In this document: positions 1 through 13,723 of the stretch, one piece after another
Layout: the number at the start of each line of letters is the position of its first letter
Position numbering within the stretch: the stretch's first letter is position 1
Source: Methanothrix sp.
GTDB lineage: Archaea > Halobacteriota > Methanosarcinia > Methanotrichales > Methanotrichaceae
NCBI RefSeq assembly: GCF_030055635.1
Contig: NZ_JASFYM010000013.1
Coordinates: 1-64,000 of the forward strand
Direction: 5' to 3'
DNA: 64,000 nucleotides
Position numbers and translations under genes: made by a program
Notes under the pieces: generated by a model
Seen by the model: only the letters and a program-made list of their open reading frames with translations
Database searches by the model: none
What the model was told of the DNA's origin: nothing

Positions 1-651
1 CAGAAGGTGGCGGGGAATGGTGTTATTGACATAAGCACATCGATCGTGGACAAGAAGATCGCTCTCGAGTACTACAACGTGATGGCCGGCGACGGCGATT
101 TCGAGCTCGACTCCGAGCACCTGCTCTCGGAGAACGCGAGCAAGCTGATGAGACCAGGGCCTTCCAGCAATGTGAGTGATAAGAAGCCTCTCAACCTGTA
201 TGAGACATCGAAGATGACCTACTCAGGGAGCACACCGCTCGTCGGTGGCAAGTACCTCCACTCCAAGGCCTTCTACGGAGGCATCGGTGCTGAGGTGCAG
301 GAGGTCTTCGCTGTAACGGAGATGGAGAAGGATCAGACCGTGTACTTCGCATCGACTGATCCCACAGGCCACTGGACCGAGAACCCGCTGAATTCGAGTG
401 AGAAATGGGATGATAAGGCCAAGAACAATCTCAAGTACAACGTGAGCCCGACGCATCTCGTCGGATTCGAGACCAGGAACTACTTCAACGGCACATGGGG
501 CACCGACTCCAAGTGGCACAAGATATTCTACAAGGACATAAAGGATCACCAGTCGTTCACAGGCACATTCGAGGTCGAGAAGCTGATCAAGTTCCACGAG
601 GCGCCGTTCGCTGAGGAGAAGCCCAGCCCGTGCGCAGGCGTCGACTGCTGA
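1..651 (+). CDS. Exported/surface-type protein, C-terminal part (5' end outside window)
   Basis: The reading frame is open from the first base, so the true start lies upstream and only the last 216 codons are visible. I do not recognise a named family. The segment around GGIGAEVQE, followed by an aromatic-rich stretch and a final GTFEVEKLIKF, matches in order the C-terminal half of the next gene (GGIGAKVRE, then GSFEIMRKILF), so the two are paralogues sharing a C-terminal domain. It ends with two cysteines (CAGVDC). The next gene begins about 30 bases after the stop, which suggests an operon. An envelope role is inferred from the exported neighbour; the N-terminus is not visible. Confidence 0.6.
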   Translation, partial: QKVAGNGVIDISTSIVDKKIALEYYNVMAGDGDFELDSEHLLSENASKLMRPGPSSNVSDKKPLNLYETSKMTYSGSTPLVGGKYLHSKAFYGGIGAEVQEVFAVTEMEKDQTVYFASTDPTGHWTENPLNSSEKWDDKAKNNLKYNVSPTHLVGFETRNYFNGTWGTDSKWHKIFYKDIKDHQSFTGTFEVEKLIKFHEAPFAEEKPSPCAGVDC

Positions 652-1970: not shown

Positions 1971-3113
1971 ATGGCATTACAGCCGACGCCCGTTGATATC
2001 GGGCTATTTGCGATAGTTCTGATTGTGCTCGTTGGTCCATTCATGGTGAGAAAGATAGAGCACAACCTGGAGGCGTTTCTTTTCGTGATGGGCGTGCTCG
2101 CAGTGACCCTATCTGGATTCGAGAGCAAGGAGGTTCTTGAGCAGATATACATCAACAACCCTGAGGCAGTGGAGAAGATAGGCTGGCACATGGAGCTCGT
2201 CATGGAGGCCATAAAGGAGCCGATCATAAAGGGCATCGTGCCTGCTGTCCTGGTTGCGGGTCTGCTCTTCCATTATGGGAGAACAACTGCTCAGAGGGCC
2301 ATGGCCAGGATCCTTGAGGTAGTTCCCCTGAAGGTTATTGTCTTCCTGATGGTCGTGATACTCGGCCTCTCGTCAAGCATAATAACCGCGATCATAGCAT
2401 CCCTTCTCCTAGTCGAGCTCGTCAACTGCATGCCTCTTGACAGGAAGACGAAGATAAACGTAGTGATCATCGCGTGCTTCTCGATAGGCCTCGGCGCTGT
2501 TCTCACTCCTGTAGGCGAGCCGCTCTCGACCATAGCGATCACCAAGCTTCAGGGCCCGCCATACAATGCTGGGTTCTTCTTCCTCTTCAACAGGCTCGCG
2601 GTGTACATAATTCCAGGCTGCCTGGCGATGGGACTTCTCGCGATGTTCTTCACAGGGAAGGCGGCGAAGGAGGCATGTGCAGTTGCAGCTGAGGAGGGCG
2701 CAGGCCTGAGGGACGTCTTCGTCAGGGCTCTTAAGGTCTACATCTTCGTCATGGCGCTGCTTCTCCTGGGCGGGGGCATGAAGACCGTCATAGATAAATA
2801 CCTGCTGACAGTACCGCCCCAGATCCTGTACTGGGTGAACATGATCTCTGCGATCCTCGACAACGCCACACTCACTGCAGCTGAGCTGAGCCCCTCGATG
2901 GATATAGTTCAGATCCAGGCTGTGCTGATGGGACTCCTGATATCCGGAGGCATGCTGATCCCCGGGAACATCCCGAACATCATATCGGCAGGCAAGCTCA
3001 ACATCACGAGCAAGGAGTGGGCGAAGCTAGGCGTACCGCTCGGCCTGATACTGATGGTGCTCTACTTCATCTGGGTATTCTACATACCGTTCCACATAGA
3101 GTTCCATCTGTAA
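1971..3113 (+). CDS. DUF1646 family predicted cation transporter
   Basis: A 380-residue polytopic membrane protein, about ten hydrophobic segments. The motifs TPVGEPLSTIAITKL (about residue 183) and SAILDNATLTAAELSP (about residue 300) are typical of the DUF1646 family, which belongs to the ion transporter superfamily with NhaD-like antiporters and is common in methanogens. The expected role is sodium or other cation movement across the cytoplasmic membrane; the substrate is not established. The start is fixed by a strong ribosome binding site (GAGGTGATT). It stands alone, converging on a minus-strand gene that begins two bases after its stop. Confidence 0.8.
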   Translation: MALQPTPVDIGLFAIVLIVLVGPFMVRKIEHNLEAFLFVMGVLAVTLSGFESKEVLEQIYINNPEAVEKIGWHMELVMEAIKEPIIKGIVPAVLVAGLLFHYGRTTAQRAMARILEVVPLKVIVFLMVVILGLSSSIITAIIASLLLVELVNCMPLDRKTKINVVIIACFSIGLGAVLTPVGEPLSTIAITKLQGPPYNAGFFFLFNRLAVYIIPGCLAMGLLAMFFTGKAAKEACAVAAEEGAGLRDVFVRALKVYIFVMALLLLGGGMKTVIDKYLLTVPPQILYWVNMISAILDNATLTAAELSPSMDIVQIQAVLMGLLISGGMLIPGNIPNIISAGKLNITSKEWAKLGVPLGLILMVLYFIWVFYIPFHIEFHL

Positions 3114-7603: not shown

Positions 7604-7783
7604 GACTACGACCTTTTCTCCCCTCGATTCAATCCTTTGAAACATGCAGGTTGGCGTCCCACTAGATAATCTCTTCGTTTGGGGAGCGGGAGTATGGAAC
7701 ATCCCGGCCTGCGCATGAGTCCTGGACTTTGGTTGCATCCACATGACCGAAATCTTCAGGGCATCCCTGACACCAGATACTGT

Positions 7784-7841: not shown

Positions 7842-9401
7842 ATGAAGCCCATTTACCTCATGCTCATTGTGCTGCTTCTGAGCGGGATCGCCTCCGCCCA
7901 GCTTAAGCCGGATCGGGAGCGTTTCGATATCGAGATCCACCCTGGAGAGGTCATACACAAGACTCTGACCCTGACAAACACAGGTGAGGAGCCGGTATCG
8001 AGGATAAGAGCCACCTCTGTGGGTGGGGATGCAAAGGATATGATTATGATCGATATACCGAAGAAGAAGATCGATCCGGGCGATGATATGGATGTGGACA
8101 TCTTTTTCATGGCACCTCCTGAGACGAAGCCCGGACTGTACACGGGATTCTTCTACATCTTCGATGAGACTGCGCCTCCTGTTCTTCCGATAGCCATAAG
8201 CTTCAACCTGAACGTCATCGAGAAGGACAGCTACAATGTCGGGCTCTACATAAACGATGCCAGGGAGGCAGGCGGAGAGGTCACCCCTGATGAGCCTGCG
8301 GAGTTCGATCTCGAGGTGAGAAACACCGGCAGGTTCAGGGATCTCATCGAGATATACATTCCCGAGGTTCCCGAGGGCTGGCACCCGAAGCTCTTCGATG
8401 GGGATAAGGAGATAGATCTTCCATACTCGCTCCCGCTCCCCTCCGGATCGAGCCGTGTTCTGAGCCTGGAGGTCGAGGTGGATGAGAGCGCAAGGAGCGG
8501 GTCAATGAGGATCGTGGCAGAGTCACAGGGCAACAGATCGAAGAACGCAAGTGTTGCTGTGAATCTAGATGTCGGGGTTGTGGTCAAGGGTTACAATGTC
8601 AGGATAGATATCCCGAAGCGCGTGGTCGTGAACAGGAGCTATGAGGGAAGGATGACGCTCTTCCTGGAGAACAACGTCAGGGTGATGGTCGATGCCATAT
8701 CAGATCCATCTCTGCTGATCGTGCCATCGAGCATGGTTCTGGACATCAACGGCAAGCTCGGATCCGCGAACTTCACGCTGATCGCGACAGAGCCCTCTGG
8801 ATACGCGATAGTCTTCAAGATGGTTGATTCGAACGGGGTGCCGTTCCCGCCTGAGATCGTGTATCTGGAAGCGATAGAGCCGTCTGGATTCGCGATGATC
8901 ACATCGACTGATCCACGGTACACGGCGATGGCCTCTCTGCTATCAGGAAACAACACGACCGTGCCTGTGATTCAGGTCGAGGACAGGGTGAGCAGGGATA
9001 TCAGGGACAGGCTTCTCCCGTACAGGGATCTGATCATACTGGGCGATGAATCTGTTGTAAGCAGCAGGATCGAGTCTGAGCTCTCTGGCTTCAACGTCTC
9101 GAGGATCGCGGGCGCGGATCTCGCCGAGACCTCCTGGATGTTCGCGGACAGGATGTGGTCAAACCAGACTGCAGTTGTCGTCTCAGGGCCAGGCGAGGTG
9201 GATGTCTTCAGATCTTATCAGATCGCGAAGCGCTCAGGTCTTCCACTGGTCGTTTGTGGCGATGAGCTCACCGATTCGATCAGGTCGTCTATTGAGAATA
9301 TGATGGCGAGGGGCCTGGAGAAGGCGATCATCGGGAGCGGGGTGAGCAGTTCAGCGGTGGAATCGCTCAGGGCCATCGGCCTCACCACGGAGGTGTCGTG
9401 A
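7842..9401 (+). CDS. Exported protein with NEW3-like Ig domains and a C-terminal CWB2-like domain
   Basis: I start at the ATG at 7842 because it opens a signal peptide (MKPIYLMLIVLLLSGIASA); the 33 codons before it are not protein-like. The 519-residue product has two or three Ig-like domains (IEIHPGEVIHKTLTLTNTGE, then EFDLEVRNTGRFRDLIEIY), as in archaeal NEW3/COG1470 proteins. The last ~130 residues include SRIAGADLAETSWMFAD, a readable match to the RI(S/A)GADRYET start of cell-wall-binding repeat 2, then alternating strands and helices ending KAIIGSGVSSSAVESLRAIG. It is likely anchored at the cell surface. Its TGA overlaps the next gene's ATG by one base, so they are probably made together. 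Confidence 0.7.
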   Translation: MKPIYLMLIVLLLSGIASAQLKPDRERFDIEIHPGEVIHKTLTLTNTGEEPVSRIRATSVGGDAKDMIMIDIPKKKIDPGDDMDVDIFFMAPPETKPGLYTGFFYIFDETAPPVLPIAISFNLNVIEKDSYNVGLYINDAREAGGEVTPDEPAEFDLEVRNTGRFRDLIEIYIPEVPEGWHPKLFDGDKEIDLPYSLPLPSGSSRVLSLEVEVDESARSGSMRIVAESQGNRSKNASVAVNLDVGVVVKGYNVRIDIPKRVVVNRSYEGRMTLFLENNVRVMVDAISDPSLLIVPSSMVLDINGKLGSANFTLIATEPSGYAIVFKMVDSNGVPFPPEIVYLEAIEPSGFAMITSTDPRYTAMASLLSGNNTTVPVIQVEDRVSRDIRDRLLPYRDLIILGDESVVSSRIESELSGFNVSRIAGADLAETSWMFADRMWSNQTAVVVSGPGEVDVFRSYQIAKRSGLPLVVCGDELTDSIRSSIENMMARGLEKAIIGSGVSSSAVESLRAIGLTTEVS

Positions 9402-12400
9402 TGCGCGCCATATGTATAGCAGCAATTCTAGTGCTCCTGGTATCCCAGGCAGGCGCCGTGTTCGAGAGGGGGGCGAAATCAGATTTCGATGAGATGATAC
9501 TCGTCGGAGGACAGGACTGGCATGCTGTTGTGGCATCCGTGCCGCTCTCGACATGGAGTGAGGATAACACCACAGTGGTGAAGCCGATGCTGATACTCCC
9601 GAGGGAGGTGAAGACCGGAAGGCGCCTCGGCTGGGTGGAGGGCACGGATCTCGAGAGGTACGGCATGGATGCGATCCTGCAGTCCATGACCTCGGGCAAC
9701 GTCTCCGCGATGATAATCCACGGCTCAGGCGAGGACGTCAAGACCCTTGTCAAAACAGCTCAGAAGCAGGGAATCAGGGCGTACATGACCGTATCCCTGG
9801 AGCCGGAAAAAGATGAGGAGAAGTGGACGACGACCACACCGGTGGAGGCGAACGACTCGACCCTGGCCGGAATGATCCGCGATGCATTCAGAGGTGTCGA
9901 GCTCAGGAAGAGCGTGGAGGAGGGGAACGATACAGAGATCGGGGGATACTCTCTGGACGCAAACGGAAACCGTGGATCTCTCCTGTGTCCTGTGAATCCC
10001 AATGTCAGAGAGGATCTCTACGCCAGGATCGAGGAGATCATAGATGATTACAAGGTTGATGGCGTTGTGCTCTACAGGTTCGGCTTCGAGGGAGCAGACT
10101 ACTGCTTCTGCGATGTCTGCAAGGAGGAGTTCTACAGAGATACAGGGCTGGACCTGACGAGGATAAGGTCCTCGGGATACAACTATCAGAAGTGGCTCTC
10201 TTGGAGGGAGCAGAAGGTCCTGGAGATCGCCCGAGAGGCGCGGAACATAACCAGAAATCTGGGACCGGTCGAGCTCGGTGTCGCCATAGACGAACCTTTT
10301 GACAAATCGAAGGGCTACAATCTCTATGATCTCTCCAATATCTCAGACTTCGTCGTCGTGTCCTCGGTGCCGGTGCAGGATGCGGAGCTTGCCGCAAGGG
10401 TGACTGATACACCGATATATGTGAGGCTCAGCGATGATTACGTCGAGTACATGCTCTCCACGCAGAACGTCGAGGGTGCGTTGAACTACATCGAGAGTCT
10501 GGTAAGAGCGGCATGCGATGGTATTGTGTTCGAGTACAACGTCGTTTACACGCCACTCTGGTCGGAGCTCGAGCCGCCCTCGAGGGCCGCGCAGTGGTTG
10601 ATAAAAGAGCTCGGCATGAGGACGCTTGGCATCGGAGATGTCTCATGGGCATGCAATGATACCTTGAGATACAACAGCAGCGAGGAGCTCGCAGTGCTTG
10701 TGAGCAGCCGGTGGAGTTCATCTCCAGGAGCGGTTCTGGTCGGGGATAACTACACAGCTGGGATCCAGGCAGCGACAATAGCCTCTTACCTGAACTGGCC
10801 TGTTCTCTTCTTCACCTCCAACATATCGAACACCACGCTCTCGGAGATCGAGAGGCTGGGATGCAGTGATGTGATCATCACAGGAGATGCGCCATCTGCT
10901 GTGGTCAAGAGGTTGGAGGAGATAAACGTCACAGTCCACAGAGGCGATCTGGATCTCCTGCTGAACGAGATGAAGGCGCGCAACGATTCTGTCAGATCCA
11001 TAGTGCTGACAAACAGCCATGACATATCCCTGATACCCCCAAAGCCGGAGAGCAGAATAAAGCGAGCCATCGTCAGGGATCTCTGGGTCACTGTTGAGAT
11101 GACGCCCGCGAGCATACCCTCCGAGGAGGCCGGTGAGGTTGTGAGGATGAACATAACGCTCAAGAACACCGGCACGGAGCCCCTGGAGGGGATCAGCCTC
11201 GTCGACATGTTCGCTAACGGTCGTTATGTGAGAATGCCGATATACTACAAAGGAAAGCTCGCGATAACCGATCCGATATCCAAAGAGCCATCTGATCCGG
11301 CAGGCGCATTCTTCAACGGCTCGATACTCACATGGGACCTGGAGAAGCTTGAGCCAGACGAGTCGGTATCCCTGAATCTGGAGGTGGTGGTGTTACACCC
11401 GCTGGATGCCGGCTGGGTGCAGCCTCTCGACAGGGGCATGACCGTCAGGTACACCGGCCTGGAGGATAACGTCACGGTGAAGACCGAGAACGATGGGCCG
11501 GTCTCTGAGATCACGTATCCGGGAGAGATGCCCGTTGGGACCGCGATAGTCACATGGAACGTCACCGAGCCGCACACCTACACAGCCCTCCGGCTCTTCA
11601 GCCCGCACGGTCTTATCGGCCACGTCCGGTTCAGTGCCAGCTCCAGAGGATACCGCGCGGTGCTTCCGATGCCCGAGCCTGGAAGGTGGCTATTCAACAT
11701 CGAGGTTGGAGGCGGCACAGAGTACCGGACGAAGAACATGAGCATAGAGGTGAAGTCCACGCTGCCGCCGAACAACGTGACGGCTTTCAGCCACACAAAG
11801 ATACCGAAGCTGTCGCTGGCATCGATGCAGGTCGCAGCTGCAAAGCATGCCATTGTGATGGATGTGGTCAGGGACCCGCAGTACGTGGATCCGAAGGATG
11901 TGGAGGAGTGGCTGCGCGAGAGCGTGGAGGAGATGGAGCTAAAGCCGGAGTACCTCCTTGTGGTTGGAGACCCCGGAGCACTTCCGTTCCCGACCACCGG
12001 CGTGAAGCAGGAGTTCGAGGGGGATCCCTTCTCCTATGATGTTTACAGGGACTACAGGATAGACATGGACGATGACAACTACACAGAGGTATCTACAGGT
12101 AGGTTCATAGGTCTCAGCGTTTACGACGTCTCGCAGATGGTCGCCAGGACGCTGAGCTACGGGAGGCTTCAGGGCAACTGGAAGAACACATCGCTCGTAG
12201 TGGCCACGCCTGTGGAGTGGCCGTGGAGCCCTGTACCGATAAGGATAAAGGAGTATCTTGCAGATGCCGGCCTCAACTCAAGGGACCTGCGATGGGAGGA
12301 GGCGACCTTCCAGAGGGTCTCGGCGTTCCTGAATAATGGTGTGGGCATAGTCCACTTCGATCACCATGGCTCTGAGAAAGGCTGGGCCCTCTCGAGCTGG

Positions 12401-13723
12401 GCCATGACAGACTCGTTCCTCGATGAGACCCAGGTCAAGCAGTTCATTCTCGCTCCGCAGTTCACGACGAGCAACTCCTGTCTGAGCTCACGCCTGAAGG
12501 GGTTCACGATCAACGTGAGCGGCACCGAGATGTACATACCCATGAGGCTCGACGACTCGATAGCCCTCGCGTTCGTCAGGGCTGGCGCAGTGGGCTATGT
12601 GGGCTCATCCGCGCTTGTGTGGATATACGTCTCAGAGGACTACAACAAGCGCTTCTACCAGGCGCTGGTATTCGAGAATGCAACCGCCGGAGAGGCGCTG
12701 AGCCGGGCTGAGAACCTGTACATCATGAAGATGAAGGGTGCGGAGAAGATATCCTTCGAGAGGATAGAGGAGATGCTGCCACCCTGGGAGTACTCGATGA
12801 AGGAGATGATGAACCAGACCGCGAGCAGCTTCATGCTCTTCGGCGATCCTGAGTTCAGGCCGTATCTTCCAAAAGTGCCGGAGCTTCCGTACAGGGTAGA
12901 TGCGGTGGCGGGCAACGATACCGTTTCGGTCTCCGTCTCCCCGATCTCAGAGCAGGCCACGGACTGGCTCTACTGGCTCGGCGTGGACAGCACCGACGGG
13001 GAGGTCAGCCTCAACGCGCCCCCTGCGATCGTAGCGGAGGTGCTGCTTCCAAGGGATGCAGAGGATGTTGTTGTTAAGGAGGGTTCAAGGGTCATATGGC
13101 ATACGGAGGATGTCTCAGGAGAGCACAAGCGTGTGATGTGGCCCCTCATCAATCCACGCCTCGGAGATACGCGAAGCTTCTCAGTGGAATACCGCGTAAT
13201 CCCCGAGGAGGTCCAGATCATAAACATCACAGCCGGCTGGAACGCGGTCTCCATCTACGTCAAGCCAAAGGATCCGCGCGTGGAGAAGTACATCAAGGGC
13301 AAGCCGTACCGCGGTATATTCACGGTGTCTGATGACGCGTGGAGCTACTCGCTGAAGGACTCGGCGATTACGAACATAACGGCCCTCGAGCCCGGAATGG
13401 GCTACATAATCGACAGCTACGATGATTTCACCATTAAGATATCCGGTAAGCCTGTTGAGCGACCTTACAGGCTCAAGCTGAGACCCGGCTGGAACCTGAT
13501 AGGGCTGCCTGTGAACGAATCGCTGGCTCCCATGAACATCACCGTCAACACAGAGCACCGGCGGTACAGCTTCTCCGAGGCTGTCGAGAAGGGACTCATC
13601 TCAGCATTCATGTGGAAGTATGAGGATGACGACTGGAAGCCGCTGAAGATGGATGAGCAGATGGAGCCGGGGAGGGCGTACCTGATGGAGGTCACGAAGG
13701 AGTGCAGGCTGGAGTTCAGGTGA
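9401..13723 (+). CDS. Giant exported protein: glycosidase-like, CWB2-like and C25 (gingipain-type) peptidase regions
   Basis: The ATG at 9401 has GGAGGT at 9389-9394 and overlaps the previous stop by one base; 1,440 residues. A signal peptide (RAICIAAILVLLVSQAGA) leads into a region resembling GHL10-type putative glycosyl hydrolases (VDGVVLYRFGFEGADYCFCD, Cys235-x-Cys237-xx-Cys240). About residues 420-530 look CWB2-like (VLVGDNYTAGIQAATIASYL), followed by an Ig-like segment. About 800-1160 resembles peptidase family C25: STGRFIGLSVYDVSQ, HHGS with His989, SNSC with Cys1027, and AGAVGYVGSS, the order and spacing of the gingipain catalytic pair. Two GWN motifs (AGWNAVSIYV, PGWNLIGLPV) mark C-terminal repeats. 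Peptidase activity is an inference. Confidence 0.72.
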   Translation: MRAICIAAILVLLVSQAGAVFERGAKSDFDEMILVGGQDWHAVVASVPLSTWSEDNTTVVKPMLILPREVKTGRRLGWVEGTDLERYGMDAILQSMTSGNVSAMIIHGSGEDVKTLVKTAQKQGIRAYMTVSLEPEKDEEKWTTTTPVEANDSTLAGMIRDAFRGVELRKSVEEGNDTEIGGYSLDANGNRGSLLCPVNPNVREDLYARIEEIIDDYKVDGVVLYRFGFEGADYCFCDVCKEEFYRDTGLDLTRIRSSGYNYQKWLSWREQKVLEIAREARNITRNLGPVELGVAIDEPFDKSKGYNLYDLSNISDFVVVSSVPVQDAELAARVTDTPIYVRLSDDYVEYMLSTQNVEGALNYIESLVRAACDGIVFEYNVVYTPLWSELEPPSRAAQWLIKELGMRTLGIGDVSWACNDTLRYNSSEELAVLVSSRWSSSPGAVLVGDNYTAGIQAATIASYLNWPVLFFTSNISNTTLSEIERLGCSDVIITGDAPSAVVKRLEEINVTVHRGDLDLLLNEMKARNDSVRSIVLTNSHDISLIPPKPESRIKRAIVRDLWVTVEMTPASIPSEEAGEVVRMNITLKNTGTEPLEGISLVDMFANGRYVRMPIYYKGKLAITDPISKEPSDPAGAFFNGSILTWDLEKLEPDESVSLNLEVVVLHPLDAGWVQPLDRGMTVRYTGLEDNVTVKTENDGPVSEITYPGEMPVGTAIVTWNVTEPHTYTALRLFSPHGLIGHVRFSASSRGYRAVLPMPEPGRWLFNIEVGGGTEYRTKNMSIEVKSTLPPNNVTAFSHTKIPKLSLASMQVAAAKHAIVMDVVRDPQYVDPKDVEEWLRESVEEMELKPEYLLVVGDPGALPFPTTGVKQEFEGDPFSYDVYRDYRIDMDDDNYTEVSTGRFIGLSVYDVSQMVARTLSYGRLQGNWKNTSLVVATPVEWPWSPVPIRIKEYLADAGLNSRDLRWEEATFQRVSAFLNNGVGIVHFDHHGSEKGWALSSWAMTDSFLDETQVKQFILAPQFTTSNSCLSSRLKGFTINVSGTEMYIPMRLDDSIALAFVRAGAVGYVGSSALVWIYVSEDYNKRFYQALVFENATAGEALSRAENLYIMKMKGAEKISFERIEEMLPPWEYSMKEMMNQTASSFMLFGDPEFRPYLPKVPELPYRVDAVAGNDTVSVSVSPISEQATDWLYWLGVDSTDGEVSLNAPPAIVAEVLLPRDAEDVVVKEGSRVIWHTEDVSGEHKRVMWPLINPRLGDTRSFSVEYRVIPEEVQIINITAGWNAVSIYVKPKDPRVEKYIKGKPYRGIFTVSDDAWSYSLKDSAITNITALEPGMGYIIDSYDDFTIKISGKPVERPYRLKLRPGWNLIGLPVNESLAPMNITVNTEHRRYSFSEAVEKGLISAFMWKYEDDDWKPLKMDEQMEPGRAYLMEVTKECRLEFR

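Follow-up and report, generated by a model that had tools for sequence, protein, structure and literature searches.

A translationally coupled gene pair encoding a predicted C25 peptidase with CWB2 modules is conserved across the Methanotrichaceae

The archaeal family Methanotrichaceae carries, as a core trait, a gene pair whose second member encodes a giant secreted protein. Its domains are individually known, but their combination and the operon are strongly conserved and have not been described before. We characterized this pair within a 64,000-nucleotide stretch of DNA from Methanothrix sp. (hereafter ‘the window’; assembly GCF_030055635.1, contig NZ_JASFYM010000013.1, positions 1 to 64,000, forward strand). 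Judging from sequence comparisons, we propose, with a probability of roughly 0.45, that the giant protein is a CWB2-tethered C25 endopeptidase that operates with its partner to process proteins of the cell’s own envelope, most likely those of the sheath. Nothing on the giant protein emerged from literature searches for C25 proteins or gingipains of archaea, Methanosaeta and methanogens, and viral contigs yielded no relative. Methanothrix is a globally important methanogen genus, and the candidate envelope peptidase described here is single-copy, operon-paired and family-wide, with homologues in ANME-1.

Architecture of the coupled gene pair

The giant gene occupies positions 9401-13723 of the window (all features of the pair lie on the + strand) and is an intact open reading frame of 1,440 residues, confirming that the reading frame recognized in a first-pass annotation of this DNA is a real gene. 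The residues and motifs named in that annotation are likewise found where it placed them, namely His989, Cys1027, a CxCxxC motif at residues 235-240, AGAVGYVGSS at residue 1061 and GWN at residues 1279 and 1363. The protein begins with a predicted signal peptide read from the sequence (MRAICIAAILVLLVSQAGA; 9401-9460), with cleavage expected near residue 19-20. The N-terminus is hydrophobic in all orthologues, and inspection of the C-terminus revealed no hydrophobic anchor. Residue conservation was evaluated in an alignment of 37 sequences, four ANME-1 homologues included, and Pfam domains were counted in 30 orthologues.

Immediately 5ʹ of the giant gene sits the gene for its partner, a secreted protein of 519 amino acids with Ig/NEW3-like and CWB2 regions (7842-9401). 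The partner open reading frame is listed from position 7743, and its start was placed at MKPIYL after comparison with orthologues. The ATG of the giant gene overlaps the TGA stop of the partner by 1 nucleotide, and the two genes constitute a translationally coupled pair with the giant gene second. The partner stop lies 0-4 nucleotides from the giant start in 33 of 33 Methanotrichaceae loci (some genomes being counted twice), and the partner is directly upstream of the giant gene in every locus checked. The surrounding gene neighbourhood differs between genera, with only the pair remaining constant, and the partner is present in all four ANME-1 loci despite changes in the other neighbours. The ANME-1 partner is shorter and, at the threshold applied, lacks a CWB2 match. 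Near the two genes, no known RNA families or tRNAs were found, and promoter and terminator matches occur at chance level.

Both proteins carry CWB2 sequences. The module of the giant protein (residues 424-541; 10670-11023) was delimited with a family profile and Pfam. It matches Cwp6 (5j72) at E 3e-8 when the family profile is used and weakly from the single sequence. Pfam CWB2 is recovered in 22 of the 30 orthologues (best 1.1e-7) and above cut-off in the ANME-1 homologues, and together these matches substantiate the CWB2-like segment noticed earlier. The partner region (residues 374-509; 8961-9368), which comprises about one and a half modules, matches Cwp8 (5j6q) at E 4e-13, and the CWB2 sequences of partner and giant protein are homologous to each other (hhalign 94%). 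An initial CWB2 family search of the window genome had returned two candidates only, neither of them significant alone. SlpA, Cwp6 and Cwp8 contain three CWB2 motifs per chain, whereas our count gives one module in the giant protein, fewer than the three that make up a triangular prism, and no more than two further modules in the partner. It can be speculated that a three-module prism is formed in trans by the two proteins. Residues 28-135 of the giant protein were considered as an additional CWB2 module and not accepted (hhalign probability 14%).

The N-terminal region of the giant protein (residues ~85-400; 9653-10600) is a probably non-catalytic barrel resembling the hypothetical glycosidases GHL10, GHL6 and DUF4015. 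The giant protein itself scores below the Pfam cut-off for GHL10 (E 0.013; 15.1 of 27.9 bits), whereas the ANME-1 homologues pass the cut-offs for all three families. With 29 of 30 orthologues also matching GHL10 (best 1.4e-6), the initial description of this region as GHL10-like finds support among its homologues. Relatives in the GHL families are expected to present an acid at the end of barrel strand 4. The corresponding position, 225, is occupied by Tyr in 33 sequences (Tyr225 in the window), by Ser in three and by Phe in one, and position 226 varies. Since none of the 37 sequences retains an acid at position 225, the glycosidase activity implied for this region is unsupported, although the modular map and the C25 assignment that accompanied it both hold. 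That earlier interpretation implied a bifunctional glycosidase-peptidase, which could draw on the significant GHL10, GHL6 and DUF4015 matches of the ANME-1 homologues and on position 378, acidic in 36 of 37 sequences. However, the residues at the strand-4 site speak against it and the GHL families are themselves hypothetical enzymes, and we regard a second, glycan-cleaving activity as highly improbable. Cys196 (9986-9988) and the three cysteines of the CxCxxC motif (Cys235, Cys237 and Cys240; 10103-10120) show no variation across the 37 sequences and could constitute a metal or disulfide site.

The remaining modules flank the peptidase. A DUF11 domain (residues 563-664; 11087-11392; Pfam), matched in 28 of 30 orthologues (best 7e-7), accounts for the part of the protein previously described as Ig-like. 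At the C-terminal end, the two GWN repeats first seen as motifs correspond to paralogous domains (hhalign probability 96%) that were delimited by motif and hhalign at residues 1271-1352 (13211-13456) and 1353-1440 (13457-13720).

The predicted C25 peptidase domain

The Peptidase C25 domain (residues 844-1153; 11930-12859) matches Pfam PF01364 at E 1.2e-44, with a score of 153.5 bits against a curated cut-off of 23 bits, and is recovered in 30 of 30 orthologues. In addition, the family profile of the giant protein matches the structure of gingipain RgpB (1cvr) at E 3e-5. His989 (12365-12367), the predicted catalytic histidine, aligns with RgpB His211, and Cys1027 (12479-12481), the predicted nucleophile, follows 38 residues later in an Ala/Ser-Cys context. 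Both residues are invariant in 37 of 37 sequences, which upholds the gingipain-type region and the His/Cys pair proposed in the first-pass annotation. Gly990, which follows His989, is kept in 36 of 37 sequences, and Ala or Ser precedes Cys1027 in 35. The conserved residues of clan CD are His-Gly and Cys (PMC12445089), and on these grounds the domain is very probably a cysteine peptidase of that clan.

The giant protein and RgpB share a homologous domain with His-Gly and Ala/Ser-Cys motifs. Unlike RgpB, the giant protein is archaeal, is 1,440 amino acids long and has its peptidase set among GHL-like, CWB2 and GWN modules. The two proteins also appear to differ at RgpB Glu152 and at the S1-pocket residue Asp163, whose equivalent columns (938/939 and 946, respectively) are variable in an alignment that is gapped at this point and deserves limited trust. 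In this same gapped alignment, the giant protein lacks the combination of Glu152 and Asp163 that characterizes the Arg-specific gingipain R. Because neither RgpB residue has a conserved counterpart, Arg specificity must not be assumed for this C25 domain. An RgpB-like specificity conferred by Asp909 was also considered and rejected, given that RgpB Asp163 aligns elsewhere. AlphaFold2 predictions for residues 775-1170 and 22-545 have mean pLDDT values of 31 and 36, respectively, each obtained with an input of only four near-identical sequences, from the window and three closely similar loci.

Among the segments of the giant protein, the C25 domain is the most conserved towards the ANME-1 homologues, with 46% identity compared with 14-36% elsewhere. 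Both this conservation and the invariance of His989 and Cys1027 argue against a non-cutting C25 domain within a protein that serves envelope structure or adhesion. Such a protein would have a precedent within the same chain, where the GHL-like barrel has seemingly lost its acid, an instance of an enzyme fold reused for binding, and we nevertheless give this explanation little credence.

The C25 family also includes PorU, the type IX secretion sortase, and the giant protein might instead be a sortase-like transpeptidase that links the surface proteins it cleaves either to an envelope polymer or to one another. A glycan acceptor could in that case be held by the CWB2 and GHL-like modules. The PorU model (NF033707, NCBIfam) is matched partially and weakly (E 0.32), but at 8.5 of 420 bits this match falls far under the cut-off, and a search short of systematic identified neither a type IX secretion system nor a C-terminal sorting signal. 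A joining reaction of this kind therefore seems improbable to us, and a cutting enzyme remains our preferred reading of the domain.

The giant protein is the sole C25 protein of the window genome. Extra, different C25 proteins, with open frames of 364-1,565 amino acids, are encoded by four relatives (G008, G011, G035 and G037).

Distribution in Methanotrichaceae and ANME-1

Searches for the giant protein gave a match in 49 of 50 Methanotrichaceae genomes, and the match in one of these (G037) is only to a different C25 protein. Orthologues are thus present in 48 of the 50 genomes, and the two that lack one are incomplete, at 58% and 81%. The gene occurs in every one of the 33 complete genomes and in all 11 genera of the family, with protein identities of about 45-55% between genera. 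Comparison with three orthologues that are 91-95% identical yields dN/dS values of 0.07-0.11, and the gene is under purifying selection. Its occurrence in every genus, combined with these ratios, excludes chance as an explanation for the open reading frame.

This distribution also bears on whether the protein could be a general secreted peptidase, employed for feeding on, or defence against, proteins from outside the cell. In favour of such a role, gingipains digest foreign protein, and a few relatives sporadically carry further C25 proteins. However, Methanothrix lives on acetate, and a single-copy, family-universal gene tied to a CWB2 partner is unlike an optional scavenging enzyme. We judge a role in feeding or defence to be unlikely.

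The giant architecture was found in none of the remaining 188 genomes of the class. Outside Methanotrichaceae, a phylum-wide sample of 394 genomes contained it only in four, all from a single family (f11). The McrA sequences of all five f11 genomes tested contain CCX4CX5C, which we take to be the ANME-1 signature, and this family is therefore assigned to ANME-1. Overall, the giant gene is present in 4 of the 51 ANME-1 genomes of the sample. In one of these (G422, genus g100; locus L059, contig C90), a single in-frame TAG near positions 11,311-11,330 splits the gene between its CWB2 and DUF11 parts, which may reflect either decay or pyrrolysine read-through.

Proposed envelope role and relationship to sheath genes

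From these sequence relationships we infer an activity, a complex, a location and a substrate for the pair. The coupled genes would yield a secreted two-protein surface complex in which the giant protein, a cysteine endopeptidase of clan CD and family C25, would cut by means of a His989-Cys1027 dyad. Its CWB2 module, aided by the CWB2 region of the partner, would anchor it in the extracellular envelope, and the probably inactive GHL-like barrel together with the Ig and GWN domains would provide binding and spacing modules. The peptidase would then cut or mature envelope proteins of its own cell. The most likely setting is the proteinaceous sheath around Methanothrix filaments and certain ANME-1 cells, when it is assembled, plugged or broken or when hoops are inserted into it.

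Envelope remodelling, already suggested in the first-pass annotation, is the best available reading of the giant protein. The odds that its target lies among envelope proteins are about even, and its assignment to sheath proteins in particular is more tentative. To our knowledge, no enzyme of sheath assembly has been reported so far. The giant protein offers a concrete candidate for a factor in the insertion of hoops into the highly resistant archaeal sheath and in the division of sheathed filaments.

An analogue that would work in a similar manner is Cwp84 of Clostridioides difficile, a cysteine peptidase located in the cell wall that processes the surface-layer protein SlpA to its mature form (PMC12445089). 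CWB2 is the defining feature of the Cwp family (PMC8881574). However, Cwp84 belongs to clan CA, family C1, and its peptidase domain is not homologous to the C25 domain of the giant protein. If the proposed role is correct, the archaeal protein would be a convergent counterpart of the clostridial CWB2-linked S-layer peptidase.

A bolder version of the proposal, which we consider rather doubtful, holds that the pair is a first non-structural component of the archaeal sheath machinery. A CWB2 prism assembled in trans would dock a C25 domain that matures or cuts the amyloid SH proteins, and the pair would have been transferred along with the sheath between Methanotrichaceae and ANME-1. Cleavage of SH would, in this arrangement, allow hoop insertion and filament division.

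The sheath-forming SH proteins have been reported in all Methanotrichales and in part of ANME-1, and a survey published in 2024 found them in 40% of ANME-1 and tied no additional protein specifically to sheath or plug formation (PMC11576556). That share contrasts with the 4 of 51 ANME-1 genomes in which the giant gene was found here. In our collection, SH genes are present in 50 of 50 Methanotrichaceae genomes. Among the 380 genomes of the phylum sample from outside the family, six have strong SH matches, four have the giant gene and three have both (hypergeometric 9e-6, uncorrected for kinship). The three genomes with both all belong to ANME-1 genus g81; together with Methanotrichaceae, this makes just two lineages that support the co-occurrence. 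SH genes are found without the giant gene in G441, G414 (86% complete) and G410 (81% complete), and a sheath can therefore apparently be encoded without the giant protein. Conversely, the genome with the TAG-interrupted giant gene has no detectable SH genes. Taken together, the link between SH and the giant gene is no more than suggestive. G441 (family f10, genus g124) encodes SH-like proteins with matches at E 7e-47, and the giant gene was found in none of the 55 genomes of family f10 searched.

Within the window, the giant/partner pair is found 6 kb downstream of two SH genes. This arrangement recurs in L034/G044 and G045 but is absent from Methanothrix thermoacetophila (G046) and from other genera, and thus represents synteny at the level of a single genus (g1). 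SH genes were located in M. thermoacetophila, a genome recognized by its gene order near the S-layer gene Mthe_0677; a first SH match in this genome proved to be a CRISPR-like repeat array and was replaced by the right SH cluster.

The first SH gene of the window (1-651, + strand; E 1.7e-39) is truncated at its 5ʹ end, where the contig begins, and is likely an orthologue of Mthe_0667. A second SH-like gene (630-1769, + strand) shares the core motifs, by inspection, and adds an N-terminal Ig/NPCBM-like cap. SH copies are repeated in the genome, which may have caused the assembly to break at the contig start. Directly downstream of the SH genes is the gene for a DUF1646 membrane protein (window positions 1971-3113), and this position is kept in relatives from genus g1.
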